A DNA stretch of 64,000 nucleotides from contig NZ_CP007130.1 of the NCBI RefSeq assembly GCF_000522985.1, forward strand, positions 310,001 to 374,000, given 5' to 3'. The stretch is from Gemmatirosa kalamazoonensis (GTDB lineage Bacteria; Gemmatimonadota; Gemmatimonadetes; Gemmatimonadales; Gemmatimonadaceae). Position 1 is the first letter of the stretch. Every line of letters starts with the position of its first letter. The position numbers and the translations under genes were made by a program. This document shows positions 44,889 to 52,342 of this stretch, piece by piece. A model generated the notes under the pieces. That model was not told the origin of the DNA. It was given only the letters and a program-made list of their open reading frames with translations, and did not search any database.

Positions 44889-45061
44889 GCGCGCACGATG
44901 GGAGCGGCCGCACGCGGCGCGAGCGTGTGACGTCGCGCTCTTCCCGCGGCACGGCGCGCGCACTATGATGGGCCCGCCTGCGTCCGAAAGGCAGACGGTC
45001 GCCCCGCCGCGTGGCCGCGCTGTCGACTCCGCGCCGCCTCACCTCCCCACGCTGCCGCCTC

Positions 45062-46377
45062 GTGACCGCGATCGAGCTCCCGCCGACGGCAGAACGGACG
45101 CACGATGCGGCTCGCCACGTCGTTCCGTACGGCGCGTGCGCGCTCATCGGGCTCGGCGGGCTCTTCGCCGGCGTCACCGGTCCGCTCCTCAGCGCCTTCA
45201 TCCCGGGGCTCGTGCGCGACGTGCTCGGCGAGCACCGCACCGCCATCGGCGCCGTCATGGCGATCGACAACGTGCTGCTCCTCGCGCTCGTCCCGTGGGC
45301 GGGGCCTGCATCGGACCGCGCCGCCGCTCACGGGCGTGGTCGACTGCCGCTCGTCACCGCGGCGATGCTGCTCTCGGCGCTCGGCATGGCGCTCCTTCCC
45401 GAGACGCGCGGGCTCGGCCTCCCGACGCTCGTCGCCGCGCTCGTCCTGCTGTACGTGGGAATCAACGTGCAGCGCGCGCCGCTGCAGGCGCTCGTCGCCG
45501 ACCTCGTGCCGTCGCGCTGGCGCTCGCTCGCGACGGGGTCGGTCACGTTCCAGATGTGCGTCGGCGCGATCGCGTTCCTGATGCTCGGCCACGCGCTCGG
45601 GATGCGGCCCGCGTTCTGGATCGCGGCGGTCACGGTGCTCGGCATCGCCGCGGCGCTCGCGCTCGGCCTCCGTGAGTCGCCGCGCCCGATGACGAGCGAG
45701 GTGGACGCCGAGGCGGCGGACGTGTCGTTCCGATCGCTCGCCGAGGCCGCGTGGAGCGCGGTGCGCGGCACGGTGCCCGGGATGCGCCCGATCTTCCTCG
45801 CCGCGCTGCTGCTGCAGCTCACCTTCCAGACGTTCACCACCTGGTACGCGCTGCACGCCGCCGACCGCTTCGGTGGCGGGGGGCCGATGCGACGATCGGC
45901 TTCATCGCGTGGGCGGTCGGCGGCGTGCTCGGCGCGCTGCCGGCCGGCGTGGTGGGGACGCGTATCGGGCGACGGAACGCCATGCTCGCGGGGCTCGTCG
46001 TCATGGCCGCGAGCCTGCTGGCGCTCGACCGCGTCGCCACGCTCGGCCAGGCGGTGCCGCTGCTCGCGCTCGCGTCGGCCGCCTGGACGTTCCCGCAGGT
46101 GAACGCCTACCCGCTGTTCGTCGAGCCCGTGCCCCGCGAGCGCCGCGGGGTGCTGGCGTCGGTGTTCCTGCTGTGCATGGCGTTGGGCGGCGCGATCGGC
46201 GACCCGCTGAACGGGCGCCTGTTCGACTGGTTCGGCGGCTACCGCGCGCTGTTCCTGCTCATGGCGTGCTACACGGCACTCGCGTGCGTGGCGGTGCTGC
46301 GCGTGCCGCGCGGCGCCGGTGAAGCGGACACCGGGGCGCCGGCCGACGCCCGCACCGTGCTGGCGCCCGCCGAGTGA
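45062..46377 (+). pseudogene. MFS transporter, single-base frameshift in a G run
   Basis: The N-terminal part (about 12 kb-scale MFS fold) reads well from a GTG at 45062 (or 45011) to FQTFTTWYALHAADRFGGGG. Then the frame changes and the rest continues as ADATIGFIAWAVGGVLGALP to a stop at 46375-46377. The switch falls in GGGGGG at 45878-45883; seven Gs would give an unbroken reading frame. Helices and loops of both parts match a sugar- or drug-transport MFS of about 440 residues. The change may be a sequencing error, a true mutation or phase variation. It ends 62 bp before the selenoprotein candidate. Confidence 0.8.
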
Positions 46378-46439
46378 GCGCTCGACCGAGCGCGAAGCCG
46401 ATGCGTCGTGTAGTGCCACCCGAGATGACGAGGACGTAC

Positions 46440-47033
46440 ATGGAGCCGATGTTCCTGCCCGGAGTCGAGGGAGACCCCAAGCCCGGTGCATACGCCGACC
46501 TGATCGCGCAGATGCGGCCGACGGGGAGCGAGTACCCGCAGATCTGGCATCTCTTCGCCTACCTGCCTAACGCCACGCAGCATCTCGGCCGCTTCACGCA
46601 GGAGATCCTGCGCGGGCCCGCGCCGCTGTCGCCGGGACTGCGGGAGCTGATCGCGGCGTACACGTCGCAGCGCAACCACTGTCCGTTCTGAATCGCCTCG
46701 CACGCCGCGGTCGCGGCGGAGCTGCTGGAGGACGAGGCGCTGGTGCAGGAGGTGCTCCACGACGCGCAGACGTCGCGCCTCGATGCTCGACACAAGGTGC
46801 TGTTCGCGTTCATCGACCGCGTGAACCACGACTCGCCCCGCATCACGGCGGACGACGTGGCGGCGGTGCGCGCCGCGGGCTGGACGGACGAGGCGCTGTA
46901 CTTCGCCATCACCGTCTGCGCGCTGTTCAACTTCTACAACCGCTGGATCGACGCCACCGGCGTGCACGCCATGTCGGAGGAGGCGCACCGCGCCGGCGGC
47001 AAGCGGAGCGCGCGGGGGTCGTACGCACGCTGA
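46440..47033 (+). CDS. AhpD/CMD-family peroxidase-related protein with an in-frame UGA, probable selenocysteine
   Basis: The full product is 197 residues if the UGA at 46689-46691 is read through. The upstream part ends with GLRELIAAYTSQRNHCPF and the downstream part begins IASHAAVAAELLEDEALV, in the same frame, with no other stop until 47031. Together they give CxxUxxxH (Cys81, Sec84, His88), matching the CxxCxxxH site of AhpD and other carboxymuconolactone decarboxylase-like proteins. The remainder (AGWTDEALYFAITVCALFNF, YNRWIDATGVHAMSEEAHR) is typical of the peroxidase-related subgroup. The start at 46440 has GAGGA seven bases upstream. Selenocysteine would lie at the attacking or resolving position of the active site. 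Confidence 0.85.
46692..46721 (+). promoter_or_regulatory. Putative bacterial SECIS element downstream of the UGA
   Basis: Right behind the UGA (46689-46691) lies CGCCGC (46703-46708), a GGTC tetraloop (46709-46712) and GCGGCG (46713-46718), a perfect 6-bp GC stem. A lower pairing CTC/GAG (46697-46699 with 46719-46721) extends it with a three-base bulge. The loop GGUC is the one of the E. coli fdhF SECIS, and 17 nt between UGA and the loop fit the range known for bacterial SECIS. SelB binding is inference. Confidence 0.7.
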
Positions 47034-47077
47034 CTGGCGCGCGACCGCGCCGCGCGAGGGGACGGCGGGTATCGCTC

Positions 47078-47106
47078 GTCAAACCCTGACGGCCGCCGCG
47101 CTGTCC
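47078..47106 (+). promoter_or_regulatory. Second copy of the GTCAAACCCTG ... CTGTCC element
   Basis: GTCAAACCCTG (47078-47088) and CTGTCC (47101-47106) start 23 bp apart, as at 6603-6631. The element is 72 bp upstream of the permease ATG at 47150. This copy supports a shared promoter for two of the four permease genes. The other two permease genes (13410 and 49583) do not show it. Confidence 0.4.
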
Positions 47107-47149
47107 CACCGCCGTTCGGCCGGACCCGTCCCGCTCCCGGAAGGCGCTC

Positions 47150-49561
47150 ATGAACGACCTGCGCTACAGCGTGCGCGCGCTGCGCCGCGACCTCCGCCTC
47201 ACCACGTTCGCCCTGCTCACGGTCGCGCTGGGCATCGGCGCGACGGTCACGGTGTTCAGCGTGATCGACGCGCTGCTGCTACGGCCCCTGCCGTTGCGCG
47301 AGGCCGAGCGGCTGATGTGGATCGCGAACGGCGACGCGTACGACCTCTCCATGCGCACGGCGCAGGTGCAGTACGTGTGGGCGCTCGAGCGCGACGGCCG
47401 CTCGCTCGTCGACGTCGCCGGCTACTCGGAGTTCTACGGCGTCGGCGACCACACGCTGACGAGCGGCGCCGGCGAGCCCGAGCGCCTAACGGGAGTCGAG
47501 GTCACGCGCGGCTTCTTCCCGCTGCTCGGCGTGTCCCCGATCGTCGGACGGCAGTTCACCGCCGACGAGGCGGTCGACGACGGGCCGCGCGTCGTGCTGC
47601 TGAGCCACCGCCTGTGGGCGCGGCGCTTCGCGTCGGACCGGGGCATCGTCGGCCGCGCGATCGTCCTCGACGGCGCGCCGGCCACCGTGGTCGGCGTGCT
47701 GCCGTCGACGTTCGACTTCGGGACGATCTTCGCGCCGGGGCGACAGGTGGACTACTACCGCCCGTTCCCGCTCACGGACAGGCGGAACAACCAGGGCAAC
47801 ACGCTCGCCCTGGTCGGCCGCATGCGCGCGGGTGCGACCGTCGCCGACGTGCAGCGCGAGGCGACCGTGATCGCCGAACGCGCGCGCCGCGACGGGGAGA
47901 CGCGCCGGCGCACGAACGAGTTCCACCCGATCGTGCGCGGGCTGCGGGACCATGTGAGCGGCGCGTTCCGCCCCGCGCTGCTCGTGCTCGCCGGCGGTGT
48001 GGCGCTCGTCATGCTCATGGTGTGCGCGAACCTCTCGAACCTGCTGCTCACGCGCGCCGCCGCCCGCGAGCGGGAGGTCGCGGTGCGCATCGCGTTGGGC
48101 GCGGGCCGCGCGCGGCTGCTGCGGCAGCTGCTCACCGAGAGCCTCGTGCTCGCCGGCGGGGGCGCGGCGCTCGGCCTGGGGCTCGCGTCAGGCGGCACGC
48201 TCGCGCTGTCGCGCACGCAGTCGGTCCGGCTGCCGCTGCTCGACCAGGTGCACGTGGACTGGATCGCGCTCGCGTTCACCGTGGGGGCGGCGGTGGTCAC
48301 GGGGCTGGTGTTCGGCCTCACGCCCGCGCTCCGCGTCTCCGCGCTGCGCGTCGACGAGAGCCTGAGGGATGCCGCGCGTGGCTCGACCGGCGGGCGGCAC
48401 GAGTGGACGCGCGCCGCCATCGTCGTGGCGGAGCTCGCGCTCACGTGCACGCTGCTCGTCGGCGCGGGGCTGCTGACCCGCAGCTTCGTGCGCGTGCTCG
48501 ACCAGGATCTGGGCTTCCGCCCCGAGCGCGCGGTCGCGCTTCGCATCGACCCGAGTCGGCGCTTCGCATCCGCGGGCGCGCGCGCCGCATACTTCGACGA
48601 GGCGCTTCGCCGCGTACGCGAGACGCCAGGCGTGCAGGCGGCGGGACTCACCGACGTGCTGCCGATGGGCTTCAACCGCATCTGGAACGTGGCGACCGAG
48701 CGCCCGGCGGCGCCGGACCGGCAGTTCCCGGCGTTCGTGCGCGTGGTGAGCGACGCGTACCTCCGCGCGATGGGCGTTCGCCTGCGCGCCGGGCGCGACT
48801 TCCTGCCGACCGACGACTCGGCGAGCGCGCCCGTCGCCATCGTGAACGCGGCGCTCGCACGGAAGCTGTGGCCGGGGCAGGATCCGTTAGGCCGCACCCT
48901 GCTCGGGTTCGGCGAGGCGCCGGCACGGGTCGTCGGCGTCGTGGAGGGCCTCCGCTACCAGTCCGTCGAGGAGGAGGCCGGGAGCGATCTGTACTTCCCG
49001 ATGCGGCAGATGCCGGACTACAGCGCCGTGTACGTCGTCGCGCGCGGTGCGCGGCCGGCGGCGGAGCTGGTCGCCGCGGTGCGCGCTGCGCTGCGCCCGA
49101 CGGATCCGACGCTCGCGCTCACCGAGGTGCGCACGCTGCAGGACATCGTCGACGCCTCGGTGTCGCCGCGCCGACTCATCGTGACGCTGCTCGCCGGCTT
49201 CGCCGCGTTCGCGCTCGTGCTCGCGTCGCTCGGCACCTACGCGGTAATCTCCTACGGCGTGGCGCAGCGGCGTCGCGAGATCGGCATCCGCATGGCGTTG
49301 GGCGCCACGCCGGCGCGCGTGCGCTCCACCGTCCTCTCGCGCACGCTGCGACTGACCGCGGCGGGGCTCGCGACGGGGCTGCTCGCGTCGTGGGCGCTCG
49401 GCCGGCTGCTCGGCGGGCTGCTGTACGGCGTCGGTGCGGGCGACCCGCTCACGTTCGCGGGCACGCTCGCCGTGCTCGCGCTCGTCGCTGCGGCGGCGGG
49501 GTGGCTTCCCGCGCGACGAGCGGCGCGGCAGAACCCGGCGAACGTGCTGCGCGCGCCGTGA
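47150..49561 (+). CDS. MacB/FtsX-type duplicated ABC permease (ADOP family)
   Basis: The 803-residue protein follows the permease plan: LTTFALLTVALGIGATVTVF, the first periplasmic core, the membrane cluster VLAGGVALVMLMVCANLSN, the helix IVVAELALTCTLLVGAGLL, the second core and the final membrane part with QRRREIGIRMALGATPARVRS. Its C-terminus (AARQNPANVLRAP) matches the family. GGAAGG precedes the ATG at 47150. It lies back to back with another permease gene that converges on it, and no ATPase gene is present. The GTTAGGC sites at 47484 and 48886 encode LT and LG in different codon registers. Confidence 0.9.
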   Translation: MNDLRYSVRALRRDLRLTTFALLTVALGIGATVTVFSVIDALLLRPLPLREAERLMWIANGDAYDLSMRTAQVQYVWALERDGRSLVDVAGYSEFYGVGDHTLTSGAGEPERLTGVEVTRGFFPLLGVSPIVGRQFTADEAVDDGPRVVLLSHRLWARRFASDRGIVGRAIVLDGAPATVVGVLPSTFDFGTIFAPGRQVDYYRPFPLTDRRNNQGNTLALVGRMRAGATVADVQREATVIAERARRDGETRRRTNEFHPIVRGLRDHVSGAFRPALLVLAGGVALVMLMVCANLSNLLLTRAAAREREVAVRIALGAGRARLLRQLLTESLVLAGGGAALGLGLASGGTLALSRTQSVRLPLLDQVHVDWIALAFTVGAAVVTGLVFGLTPALRVSALRVDESLRDAARGSTGGRHEWTRAAIVVAELALTCTLLVGAGLLTRSFVRVLDQDLGFRPERAVALRIDPSRRFASAGARAAYFDEALRRVRETPGVQAAGLTDVLPMGFNRIWNVATERPAAPDRQFPAFVRVVSDAYLRAMGVRLRAGRDFLPTDDSASAPVAIVNAALARKLWPGQDPLGRTLLGFGEAPARVVGVVEGLRYQSVEEEAGSDLYFPMRQMPDYSAVYVVARGARPAAELVAAVRAALRPTDPTLALTEVRTLQDIVDASVSPRRLIVTLLAGFAAFALVLASLGTYAVISYGVAQRRREIGIRMALGATPARVRSTVLSRTLRLTAAGLATGLLASWALGRLLGGLLYGVGAGDPLTFAGTLAVLALVAAAAGWLPARRAARQNPANVLRAP

Positions 49562-49582: not shown

Positions 49583-52342
49583 CTACTGTGAGCGCAGCGC
49601 CTCCAACGGCCCCACGCGCGCCGCTCGTCGCGCCGGCAGATAGCTCGCGACGACCGCCGTCGCCACGAGCACCACGATCGCGACGCCGAGCGACGGCAGA
49701 TCCAGCGGTCCGACCCCGAAGAGCTGCGCTCGGATGAGCCGGGTCGCCGCGAGCCCCGCCGGCACACCGATGACGACGCCGAGAACGGTGACGCGCAGCG
49801 CCTCGCCGAGCACCATCCTCGTCACGTCGCCCGGCGCCGCGCCGAGCGCCTCGCGCAATCCGAACTCGCCCGTGCGCTGGCTGGTCGAATACGCCGTGAC
49901 CCCGTACAGCCCGAGTGCCGCGAGCACCAGCGCGACGACGGAGAAGCACGTCGTCACGCGCACGAGCAGCACGTCCTTGGACACCGTCCCGCGCACGAGA
50001 TCGTTCACCGGATCGACGAAGATCGGCAGGGTGCCGTCGACGTCCTCGATCGCGCGACGGATCGGGAGCGCGAGGCGCGCAGGATCGCCGCGCACGTGCA
50101 CCGCGAGCTTCGCCTGCCCCGTCTCGCCCGCGTTCGGATCGCTGAAGACGACGTACATCTCGCGAGGCGGCGTGCGGCGCACGTCGCGGCTCCGAAAGTC
50201 CCGCACGACGCCAACGATGGTATGTGGGACGCCGTCGATCGTGACCGTGGCGCCGAGCGGATCGCGAGCACCGAAGTATCGCTTCGCCATCGTCTCGTTG
50301 ATCACGGTGGCGGGTGGGCCCCCTCCGAGATCGCGCGGCTCGATGTCGCGGCCGCGAATCAGCCGCGCGCCGATCGCATGGAGGAAGCTCGGGCCGACGC
50401 GATCGAGCGAGACGAGGCGCTCCGAATCCGCCTGTGGAACGAAGCCCGACACGTCGACGTGATAGCCGGACGCGCCGCCGCTGAACAATCCGTGATCGGC
50501 GAACGCGACCGCATCCACGCCGGGCACCCGGCCGACGCTCTCCGCGAGGTCGCGGCGGAGCTGCGCCAGGCGCGCCCCCACGTACGGCGAGCGCGCCGTT
50601 CGCACACGCACGGCGACGACGTGATCGCGATCGACGCCGATGTCGCTGTGCAGGAGCTGCTGCATGCTGCGCACGAGCAGGCCGCCGCCGATGAGCAGCA
50701 GCATCGACAACGCGATCTGCGCCACGACGAGCCCGCGCCCGAACGGCACGCTCACTCGCTGGCCGACGCGTGCCGCGCCCGTGAGGCTGCGTCCCTGCGA
50801 CCGCAGCGACGTCGCGAGGTCGACGCGCGTCGCACGGAGCGCGGGCAGGAGGCCGAAGAGCAACACGCACGCGAGCGTCGTCGTCGCCGTGAAGGCGAGC
50901 ACGCGCGCGTTGGGCGTCGTGTCGACGACGACCGGATTCGCGGCGCTGCTCACGCTCGCGAGCAGCACCCGGCTACCCCACGCCGCGGCGAACAGCCCGA
51001 GCACGCTCGACACGATCGCGAGCACGGCACCCTCGACCAGCATCTGCTGGATCAACCGTCCGCGGCCGCCGCCAAGCGTCATGCGCAGCGTCATCTCGCG
51101 GTTGCGGCCGACGATGCGCGCGAGCATCAGGCTCGACACGTTCGCGCAGACGACGAGAATGACGAGGCCGACCGCCGCCATCAGCACCCACAGCGCCTTG
51201 CCGTACTCGGCGCGCCGCTCGGAGAAGCCGAGCGCGCCCGACACGACGTGGATCGGCGTGTCCTTCAGGCCCTGCTCGAACTCCGCGAGGTCGCGACCAG
51301 CGAGATGCTCGCGAATCGCGTTCGCCTCGATCGCGCCGATCCGCTGACGTGCCGTCTCGAGCGTGACGCCCGGTCTGAGGCGCCCCATCATCACGACCCA
51401 CGACCAGCCGCGGTCGTCCAGCAGATTCATCTTCGGCTGGATCACGGGATCCATCATCATCGGCAGCCAGAAGTCCTGCGGCTGGCCGACGATGTCGCCG
51501 TCGAATCCCGGCGGCGTGACGCCGACGATCGTCACGGCGACGTCGTTCACGCGCATCACGCTGCCGATCGCGGAGCGCAACCCCGAGAAGCGGCGCTGCC
51601 AGTAGTCGTACGCGAGGACGGCGACGGGATCCTGGCCCGGCGTCTCGTCCTCGGCCGCGGTGAACGTGCGCCCGGCGTAGGCGCGCACGCCGAGCACGGA
51701 GAAGAAGTTGCCGGTCACGAATCGCGCGTGCGGCTGCTCCGCCGTCGTGCCGGTGCCCGACCCGATCTGCACGTCGATCGGGCCCGACCATCCGCTCGCG
51801 TACATGTCGGTGAACACCGTGTTGCGGGCGCGCACGTCCTCATAGAGCGGGAACGACACGTAGTCGGTGAGTGGCGAGCCGACGTTGTTCGTGTTCACCG
51901 CCGCGGGGTCGCTCACGATCACGAGCTGCTCGGGATGCGGCACCGGAAGCGGGCGCAGCACGAGCGCGTCGACGAGGGTGAAGATCGCCGTGTTCGCGCC
52001 GATGCCGAGGGCGAGCGTGGCGACGACCGTCAGCGTGAACGCGGGACGGGACCTCAGCGCACGGATGGCGTGGCGCAGGTCGCGCAGGATGGACTCGAGC
52101 GGCACGGTGCCGCGCATCCGGCGGCTCGCCTCCTTCACGCGGCCCGGGTGCCCGAACTCGGCGCGCGCGCGGCGTCGCGCTTCGTCGCGCGGGAGCCCCG
52201 CGCGCTCGTGGCGCTCGGCCTCGCGATCGAGGTGGAAGCGCAGCTCCGCGTCCAGCTCCCGCTCCAGCACGTCGCGATCGAACAGCGCGCGCAGTCGGTA
52301 GCGCACGTCGCTCCAGATCTCGCTCCAGAACTCTCCCGGCAT
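49583..52342 (-). CDS. MacB/FtsX-type duplicated ABC permease with N-terminal prefix domain
   Basis: The 919-residue protein is longer than the three others because of an N-terminal cytosolic prefix of about 85 residues (EIWSDVRYRLRALFDRDVL, then ELDAELRFHLDREAERHERA, then DEARRRARAEFGHPGRVKEA), a domain often found on such permeases in Acidobacteria and thought to link to PadR-type regulators. The membrane parts follow (TVVATLALGIGANTAIFTLV and QIALSMLLLIGGGLLVRSM). The C-terminus has TGEFGLREALGAAPGDVTRM. No GTTAGGC site lies in this gene. It converges on the permease at 47150. Confidence 0.9.
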   Translation of the reverse strand: MPGEFWSEIWSDVRYRLRALFDRDVLERELDAELRFHLDREAERHERAGLPRDEARRRARAEFGHPGRVKEASRRMRGTVPLESILRDLRHAIRALRSRPAFTLTVVATLALGIGANTAIFTLVDALVLRPLPVPHPEQLVIVSDPAAVNTNNVGSPLTDYVSFPLYEDVRARNTVFTDMYASGWSGPIDVQIGSGTGTTAEQPHARFVTGNFFSVLGVRAYAGRTFTAAEDETPGQDPVAVLAYDYWQRRFSGLRSAIGSVMRVNDVAVTIVGVTPPGFDGDIVGQPQDFWLPMMMDPVIQPKMNLLDDRGWSWVVMMGRLRPGVTLETARQRIGAIEANAIREHLAGRDLAEFEQGLKDTPIHVVSGALGFSERRAEYGKALWVLMAAVGLVILVVCANVSSLMLARIVGRNREMTLRMTLGGGRGRLIQQMLVEGAVLAIVSSVLGLFAAAWGSRVLLASVSSAANPVVVDTTPNARVLAFTATTTLACVLLFGLLPALRATRVDLATSLRSQGRSLTGAARVGQRVSVPFGRGLVVAQIALSMLLLIGGGLLVRSMQQLLHSDIGVDRDHVVAVRVRTARSPYVGARLAQLRRDLAESVGRVPGVDAVAFADHGLFSGGASGYHVDVSGFVPQADSERLVSLDRVGPSFLHAIGARLIRGRDIEPRDLGGGPPATVINETMAKRYFGARDPLGATVTIDGVPHTIVGVVRDFRSRDVRRTPPREMYVVFSDPNAGETGQAKLAVHVRGDPARLALPIRRAIEDVDGTLPIFVDPVNDLVRGTVSKDVLLVRVTTCFSVVALVLAALGLYGVTAYSTSQRTGEFGLREALGAAPGDVTRMVLGEALRVTVLGVVIGVPAGLAATRLIRAQLFGVGPLDLPSLGVAIVVLVATAVVASYLPARRAARVGPLEALRSQ

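Follow-up and report, generated by a model that had tools for sequence, protein, structure and literature searches.

AhpD-Like Selenoproteins and the Present Locus

The first report of AhpD-like selenoproteins came from the Sargasso Sea (PMC1088965), and AhpD-like 1 (COG2128) is abundant in the GOS (PMC2398784). In a 2026 catalogue, "AhpD-like protein, TIGR01926, CxxU" figures among the known selenoprotein families (PMC13188914), and the gene described here is an added member of this already catalogued family. Bacterial SECIS elements have been modeled as hairpins with a loop of 3–9 nt, a stem of 4–16 bp, a spacing of 16–37 nt, an MFE of at most −7.5, and a G in the first two positions of the loop (PMC13188914). 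The present locus resembles the catalogued CxxU proteins in its family model, in the predicted position of the selenocysteine (Sec) and in having a bacterial SECIS directly downstream, but differs in that it is found in Gemmatimonadota, resides on a megaplasmid, and has a second copy with a near-identical core in the sel cluster. In the open-access literature we found no paper describing a TIGR01926 selenoprotein family in Gemmatimonadota, which subscription literature or database annotation may do.

Several other systems invite comparison. NF041238 (AhpD_rel_CFYUT (seleno)protein) likewise has an AhpD domain and Sec at the second motif position (CFYU), and it weakly matches residues 68–181 of the protein; however, the score of 41.7 bits against a cut-off of 175 places the protein outside this family, and the model has 357 positions, compared to 197 residues. 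The Cys-type peroxidase-related structures 3c1l (Mesorhizobium mlr4105), 6k40 (Deinococcus AhpD), 2pfx, 2prr, and 2oyo are alike in fold (TM 0.73–0.77), length, and the position of the CxxCxxxH motif, but have Cys at the UGA column and are 20–26% identical. Mycobacterium tuberculosis AhpD (1gu9) shares the CxxCxxxH motif and the spacing to an upstream Glu; it is nevertheless a weak fold match (E 0.15, TM about 0.4) and has no selenium.

A Split Frame That Probably Encodes a Single Protein

The DNA analyzed (the window) is a stretch of 64,000 nucleotides, C4:310001-374000, where C4 denotes a 1.04-Mb replicon (1,040,503 bases) in an assembly of 7,479,215 bases and four replicons, with C2 comprising 5,311,527 bases. 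Gemmatirosa kalamazoonensis KBS708 has been described as having a chromosome of 5,312 kb and further elements of 1,106, 1,041, and 21 kb (PMC3974934).

When its internal TGA is read through, 46440–47033 is translated into 197 residues, with N-H-C-P-F-UGA-I-A-S-H around that single internal stop and a terminal TGA at 47031–47033, just as a first-pass annotation had described it. That annotation also expected standard annotation to report two small proteins, and the standard code does split the frame into ORFs of 105 aa (46374–46691) and 96 aa (46743–47033). The joined protein scores 89.4 bits against the NCBIfam model TIGR01926 ("peroxidase-related enzyme"), above the curated cut-off of 81.8, whereas the separate halves score 19.8 and 48.8 bits, both under it; the joined protein also matches Pfam CMD (39.6 bits, cut-off 23). 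The TIGR01926 model is matched by all 34 aligned members, among which Cys81, codon 84, His88, and Glu69 vary little or not at all, and the protein belongs to this family with its CxxUxxxH motif (Cys81, UGA84, His88) set in a predicted helical AhpD fold. The half downstream of the UGA is conserved as protein across TIGR01926-type homologues. The interval holds a genuine gene, for a peroxidase-like enzyme, restored here from a frame that the standard code cuts into two meaningless pieces. The features of the locus and of the sel cluster are collected in Table 1.

Table 1. Positions of the selenoprotein gene, its functional elements, and the sel genes. Plain numbers refer to the window, and numbers preceded by C4 to the replicon.
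Feature	Position	Strand	Basis
MFS transporter gene, directly upstream of the selenoprotein gene, apparently split by a frameshift near 45875–45882	45011–46377	+	ORF list, translations
Likely ribosome-binding site (GAGGA), 5 nt upstream of the ATG	46430–46434	+	read off the sequence; inference
AhpD-like selenoprotein gene (TIGR01926 peroxidase-related), 197 aa from an ATG start, with an internal and a terminal UGA	46440–47033	+	translation, profile match, homologues
Glu69 codon, nearly invariant, spaced as the active-site Glu of classical AhpD	46644–46646	+	alignment; AhpD correspondence from family knowledge
Cys81 codon (TGT), first residue of CxxU	46680–46682	+	translation, alignment
UGA codon 84, predicted Sec, second CxxC position in Cys relatives	46689–46691	+	translation, homologous loci, solved relatives
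His88 codon of CxxUxxxH	46701–46703	+	translation, alignment
Predicted bacterial SECIS hairpin, stem 46703–46708/46713–46718, loop GGUC 46709–46712	46703–46718	+	covariation, folding, published model constraints
selA	C4:455802-457133	+	profile match
selB	C4 from 457157	+	profile match
selD	C4:459160-460077	−	profile match
tRNA-Sec	C4:460131-460223	−	tRNA match

Conservation of the UGA Codon

The in-frame UGA of a bacterial selenoprotein is expected where homologues have Cys. Codon 84 is TGA in 82 and TGC in 3 of 85 homologous loci (from the relatives and the GTDB contig collection, with the window's own gene included and the sel-cluster copy counted twice), which span Gemmatimonadota, Acidobacteriota, Myxococcota, one Comamonas record, and one MAG labelled Cyanobacteria. 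Relatives of known structure have Cys at this column, as in the N-K-C-F-Y-C-L-V-A-H of 2pfx, which bears out the earlier assignment of the UGA to the second cysteine of CxxCxxxH. Among the codon-aligned homologues with 50% identity or more, 67 of 69 have TGA here as well. Of 149 relatives, 58 have a homologue (E 1e-10 or better), which carries the TGA in 56 of these 58, some of the homologues at 25–35% identity in this search being members of sister subfamilies. Homologues ending before the UGA, which the first-pass annotation had named as grounds for abandoning its reading, were not encountered, as they extend past this codon. A quick tree of 86 homologues, with long branches among the outgroups, needs only three Sec/Cys changes. 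In two of the TGC loci (L093 and L094, both from one Bryobacteraceae MAG) the first Cys has been lost as well (T-P-F-C, with Thr in place of Cys81); this MAG keeps selA, and the change appears to be a switch from CxxU to TxxC.

A Conserved Hairpin Downstream of the UGA

Eleven bases past the UGA begins a hairpin with a 6-bp stem and a 4-nt GGUC loop, 17 nt separating UGA and loop, and an MFE of −10.8 kcal/mol for the hairpin alone. Loop length, the G in the first two loop positions, stem, spacing, and energy all fall within the published bacterial SECIS constraints. An alignment of the UGA and the following 45 nt from 41 loci contains a single helix, columns 15–20 with 25–30, closed by GGUC or the variants AGUU, AGGU, and GGGU. 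Within this helix, 98% of cells are paired, and two-sided (compensatory) changes are found in four of the six pairs (C-G to G-U in six sequences, C-G to U-A in two, and one sequence each in two other pairs). On four of five measures, none of 500 shuffles reached the observed value, and on the fifth the observed value was above 496 of them; because the 41 sequences are related, these counts are not probabilities. Unaided, RNAalifold returned the identical helix, and no conserved lower stem in this 41-locus set. Synonymous choice is almost frozen in the hairpin codons (GCC in 65 of 67, GCG in 65 of 67), the median codon entropy being 1.53 bits at conserved residues with at least four codons outside the hairpin. 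The hairpin is lost in the two close TGC-type homologues, L093 and L094 (55% identity).

Viewed as a single GC-rich sequence, the hairpin is unexceptional (z of −0.76 to +1.2 for longer stretches, −0.29 from the UGA to the hairpin end), and folding the UGA with 40–100 nt is uninformative because the region is GC-rich. The significance of this putative SECIS comes from comparative evidence only. The first-pass annotation had called on the hairpin in support of Sec decoding, and this support holds for conservation and covariation but not for single-sequence stability. An Rfam scan of 46200–47300 gave no SECIS family match and one sub-threshold match to an unrelated sRNA family. The generic pattern UGA-17N-RGKYG is unspecific (11 matches versus 14.5 expected); the full stem-loop pattern, which was drawn from the family and so is not independent, matches the window only at this site (0.19 expected).

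Selenocysteine Machinery of the Host

A bacterial selenoprotein also calls for selA, selB, selC (tRNA-Sec), and selD in the genome, a search for which had been proposed along with the initial reading. All four are present above their cut-offs: tRNA-Sec with the anticodon UCA at 68.1 bits (cut-off 47), and selA, selB, and selD at 436.5, 269.9, and 409.4 bits, respectively, each above the curated value. They form one cluster, C4:455802-460223, on the replicon that contains the window. By hand count, tRNA-Sec is found in 107 of all 149 relatives and in 52 of the 56 whose homologue has TGA; the four of these without a detected tRNA-Sec comprise two with selA, one with a selA fragment, and one 72%-complete assembly. 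The relative G105, whose homologue is without TGA, has neither tRNA-Sec nor selA. Outside of the 149 relatives, selA was above the cut-off in 19 of 22 genomes holding a homologue.

Other selenoproteins in the genome were sought in few families only (CMD and Fdh-alpha). A third, distant TGA member is located on the chromosome (C2:4652333), and the Fdh-alpha search found no Sec-type formate dehydrogenase in the genome. Given that every Sec gene lies on a single megaplasmid and that no such dehydrogenase was found, the AhpD-like family may be a main reason that the trait has been kept.

A Second Copy with a Near-Identical Core

The gene in the window is a paralogue of a gene in the sel cluster on the same megaplasmid. 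This second copy (L051, C4:455134-455727) lies about 75 bases upstream of selA, some 99 kb from the window copy on C4, is 89% identical, and has the TGA too. The similarity is distributed as a mosaic. Codons 67–176 differ at 2 of 330 bases (99.4% identity), as opposed to 34 of 198 in codons 1–66 (82.8%) and 16 of 63 in codons 177–197 (74.6%). Such clustering of differing codons was reached in none of 100,000 permutations, and in 12 of 100,000 when synonymous differences alone were considered. The core is not intrinsically frozen, since both copies are equally diverged there from the gene of the relative G030 (84.8% identity each). The simplest reading of the mosaic is gene conversion of a tract containing the active site and the SECIS, which would keep the catalytic core and the SECIS identical between the copies, and a recombinant origin of one copy would produce the same mosaic.

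Fold and Predicted Chemistry

The AlphaFold model is all-helical (pLDDT 95.7), and its best Foldseek matches are all of the TIGR01926 type (3c1l, 6k40, 2prr, and 2pfx, TM 0.73–0.77), consistent with the notion that the gene product would be an AhpD-like, all-helical thiol/selenol oxidoreductase. Codon 84 would be decoded as Sec by SelB and Sec-tRNA(Sec), bound to the GGUC hairpin. M. tuberculosis AhpD has its active-site residues Glu118, Cys130, Cys133, and His137 at the same spacing as Glu69-Cys81-Sec84-His88, and Sec84 takes the place of the peroxidatic Cys133. A peroxide-reducing cycle can be proposed because of this identical spacing and Sec position. By analogy with AhpD, Sec84 would attack the peroxide and become a selenenic acid, which Cys81 would resolve into a Cys81-Sec84 selenylsulfide; a cellular dithiol would then re-reduce the selenylsulfide, and His88 and Glu69 could serve as a proton relay. 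To our knowledge, peroxidase activity is documented for only a minority of TIGR01926 proteins. Reduction of peroxide is, on balance, the probable task of the predicted enzyme. The host appears to be a cultured soil bacterium, which makes both decoding and enzymology directly accessible.

Alternative Readings of the Locus

UGA 84 is very probably decoded as Sec in an AhpD-type redox protein, and the initial view of the locus as a probable selenoprotein is strongly supported by the conservation of the UGA, the covariation in the SECIS, and the complete Sec machinery, from which we infer decoding in vivo. The UGA could instead be an ordinary nonsense mutation or sequencing error that makes the gene a pseudogene or artefact, a notion to which the two short ORFs of a standard gene caller, an assembly from long reads only (PMC3974934), and the apparent frameshift in the upstream MFS gene lend some weight. 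This alternative is contradicted by the recurrence of TGA at codon 84 across several phyla as well as in the second copy, by the downstream half kept as protein across the family, and by the SECIS covariation, rendering it extremely improbable, and it was rejected on account of the UGA conservation. A base-calling error at 46689 in particular is very unlikely, as the TGA recurs in the second copy of this genome, which is 89% identical. Decoding of the UGA as another amino acid (Trp or Cys, for example), or a regulated read-through stop without selenium, is only marginally less improbable. Under selenium shortage, insertion of Cys at UGA is possible in principle, which speaks for such decoding. 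TGA, however, serves as a terminator in this genome, even for the selenoprotein gene itself, and decoding without selenium was rejected in view of the full Sec machinery with its UCA tRNA, the Cys found at this column in Cys-type relatives, and the loss of the SECIS where the codon is TGC.

A further alternative competes with the proposed chemistry only and leaves Sec decoding untouched: the selenoprotein might be a CMD-fold enzyme partnered with the adjacent transporters and acting on an imported organic substrate, rather than a peroxide reductase. In the window, the selenoprotein gene is immediately preceded by an MFS gene; in several Acidobacteriota loci it lies between a TonB-type outer-membrane protein on its upstream side and an MFS transporter on its downstream side; and Cys homologues on Streptomyces and Spirosoma plasmids also have MFS neighbors. 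The transporter genes next to it, here and in Acidobacteriota, leave room for another substrate. Nevertheless, CxxUxxxH with a conserved Glu is the arrangement of the AhpD peroxidase, the sel-cluster copy is without such a transporter neighbor, and genes of the MFS and TonB types abound in these genomes. We consider an imported organic substrate unlikely, though far less so than the two readings that dispense with Sec.

Origin of the Selenoprotein and Its Machinery

In the tree of 86 homologues, the window protein clusters with four other Gemmatimonadota and one Acidobacteriota sequence; this cluster sits within a larger Acidobacteriota group (SH-aLRT 96–97), apart from the main Gemmatimonadota clade. 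The SelA proteins of the source genome (L105, 3782–5149) and of G030 (L107) form their own long branch (1.47), outside of the other sampled Gemmatimonadota and Acidobacteriota SelA. Both trees fit a lateral acquisition of the module, with fast evolution as an alternative. A search of every other locus with flanking sequence for a selA gene linked to the selenoprotein gene showed such linkage only in the source genome and G030; in the latter the cluster recurs as selC, selD, selB, selA, and AhpD-Sec. Near-identical DNA was not found in plasmid records, nor a relative in phage records. The mosaic of the copies and the nesting among Acidobacteriota suggest a transfer of the selenoprotein, possibly along with its machinery, between soil phyla. 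More tentatively, and with the odds somewhat against it, the megaplasmid may carry a self-contained, transferable Sec module, consisting of divergent SelA, SelB, SelD, and tRNA-Sec and an AhpD-type client that has been duplicated some 99 kb away, with the UGA-SECIS-active-site cores kept identical through gene conversion. The SelA proteins of the source genome and G030 score about 100 bits lower against TIGR00474 than those of most other Gemmatimonadota. G030 also has, at about 2471–2890 of L107 (G030:C1:728000-740000), a second, distant AhpD-like gene with an in-frame TGA directly beside tRNA-Sec.

Neighborhood of the Gene

The MFS gene upstream of the selenoprotein gene switches frame near a G run at about 45875–45882, in the manner of a −1 frameshift, which could be an assembly indel, a pseudogene, or programmed frameshifting. 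The two genes may possibly be co-transcribed. In Acidobacteriota (L059, L063, L070, L071, and other loci), the gene often has a TonB-type/CarboxypepD_reg outer-membrane protein before it and an MFS transporter after it, all encoded on the same strand. Beside the selenoprotein gene, the window also holds two large ABC-type permease genes (47150–49561 and 49583–52342), MacB/FtsX-like as judged by eye and on opposite strands.
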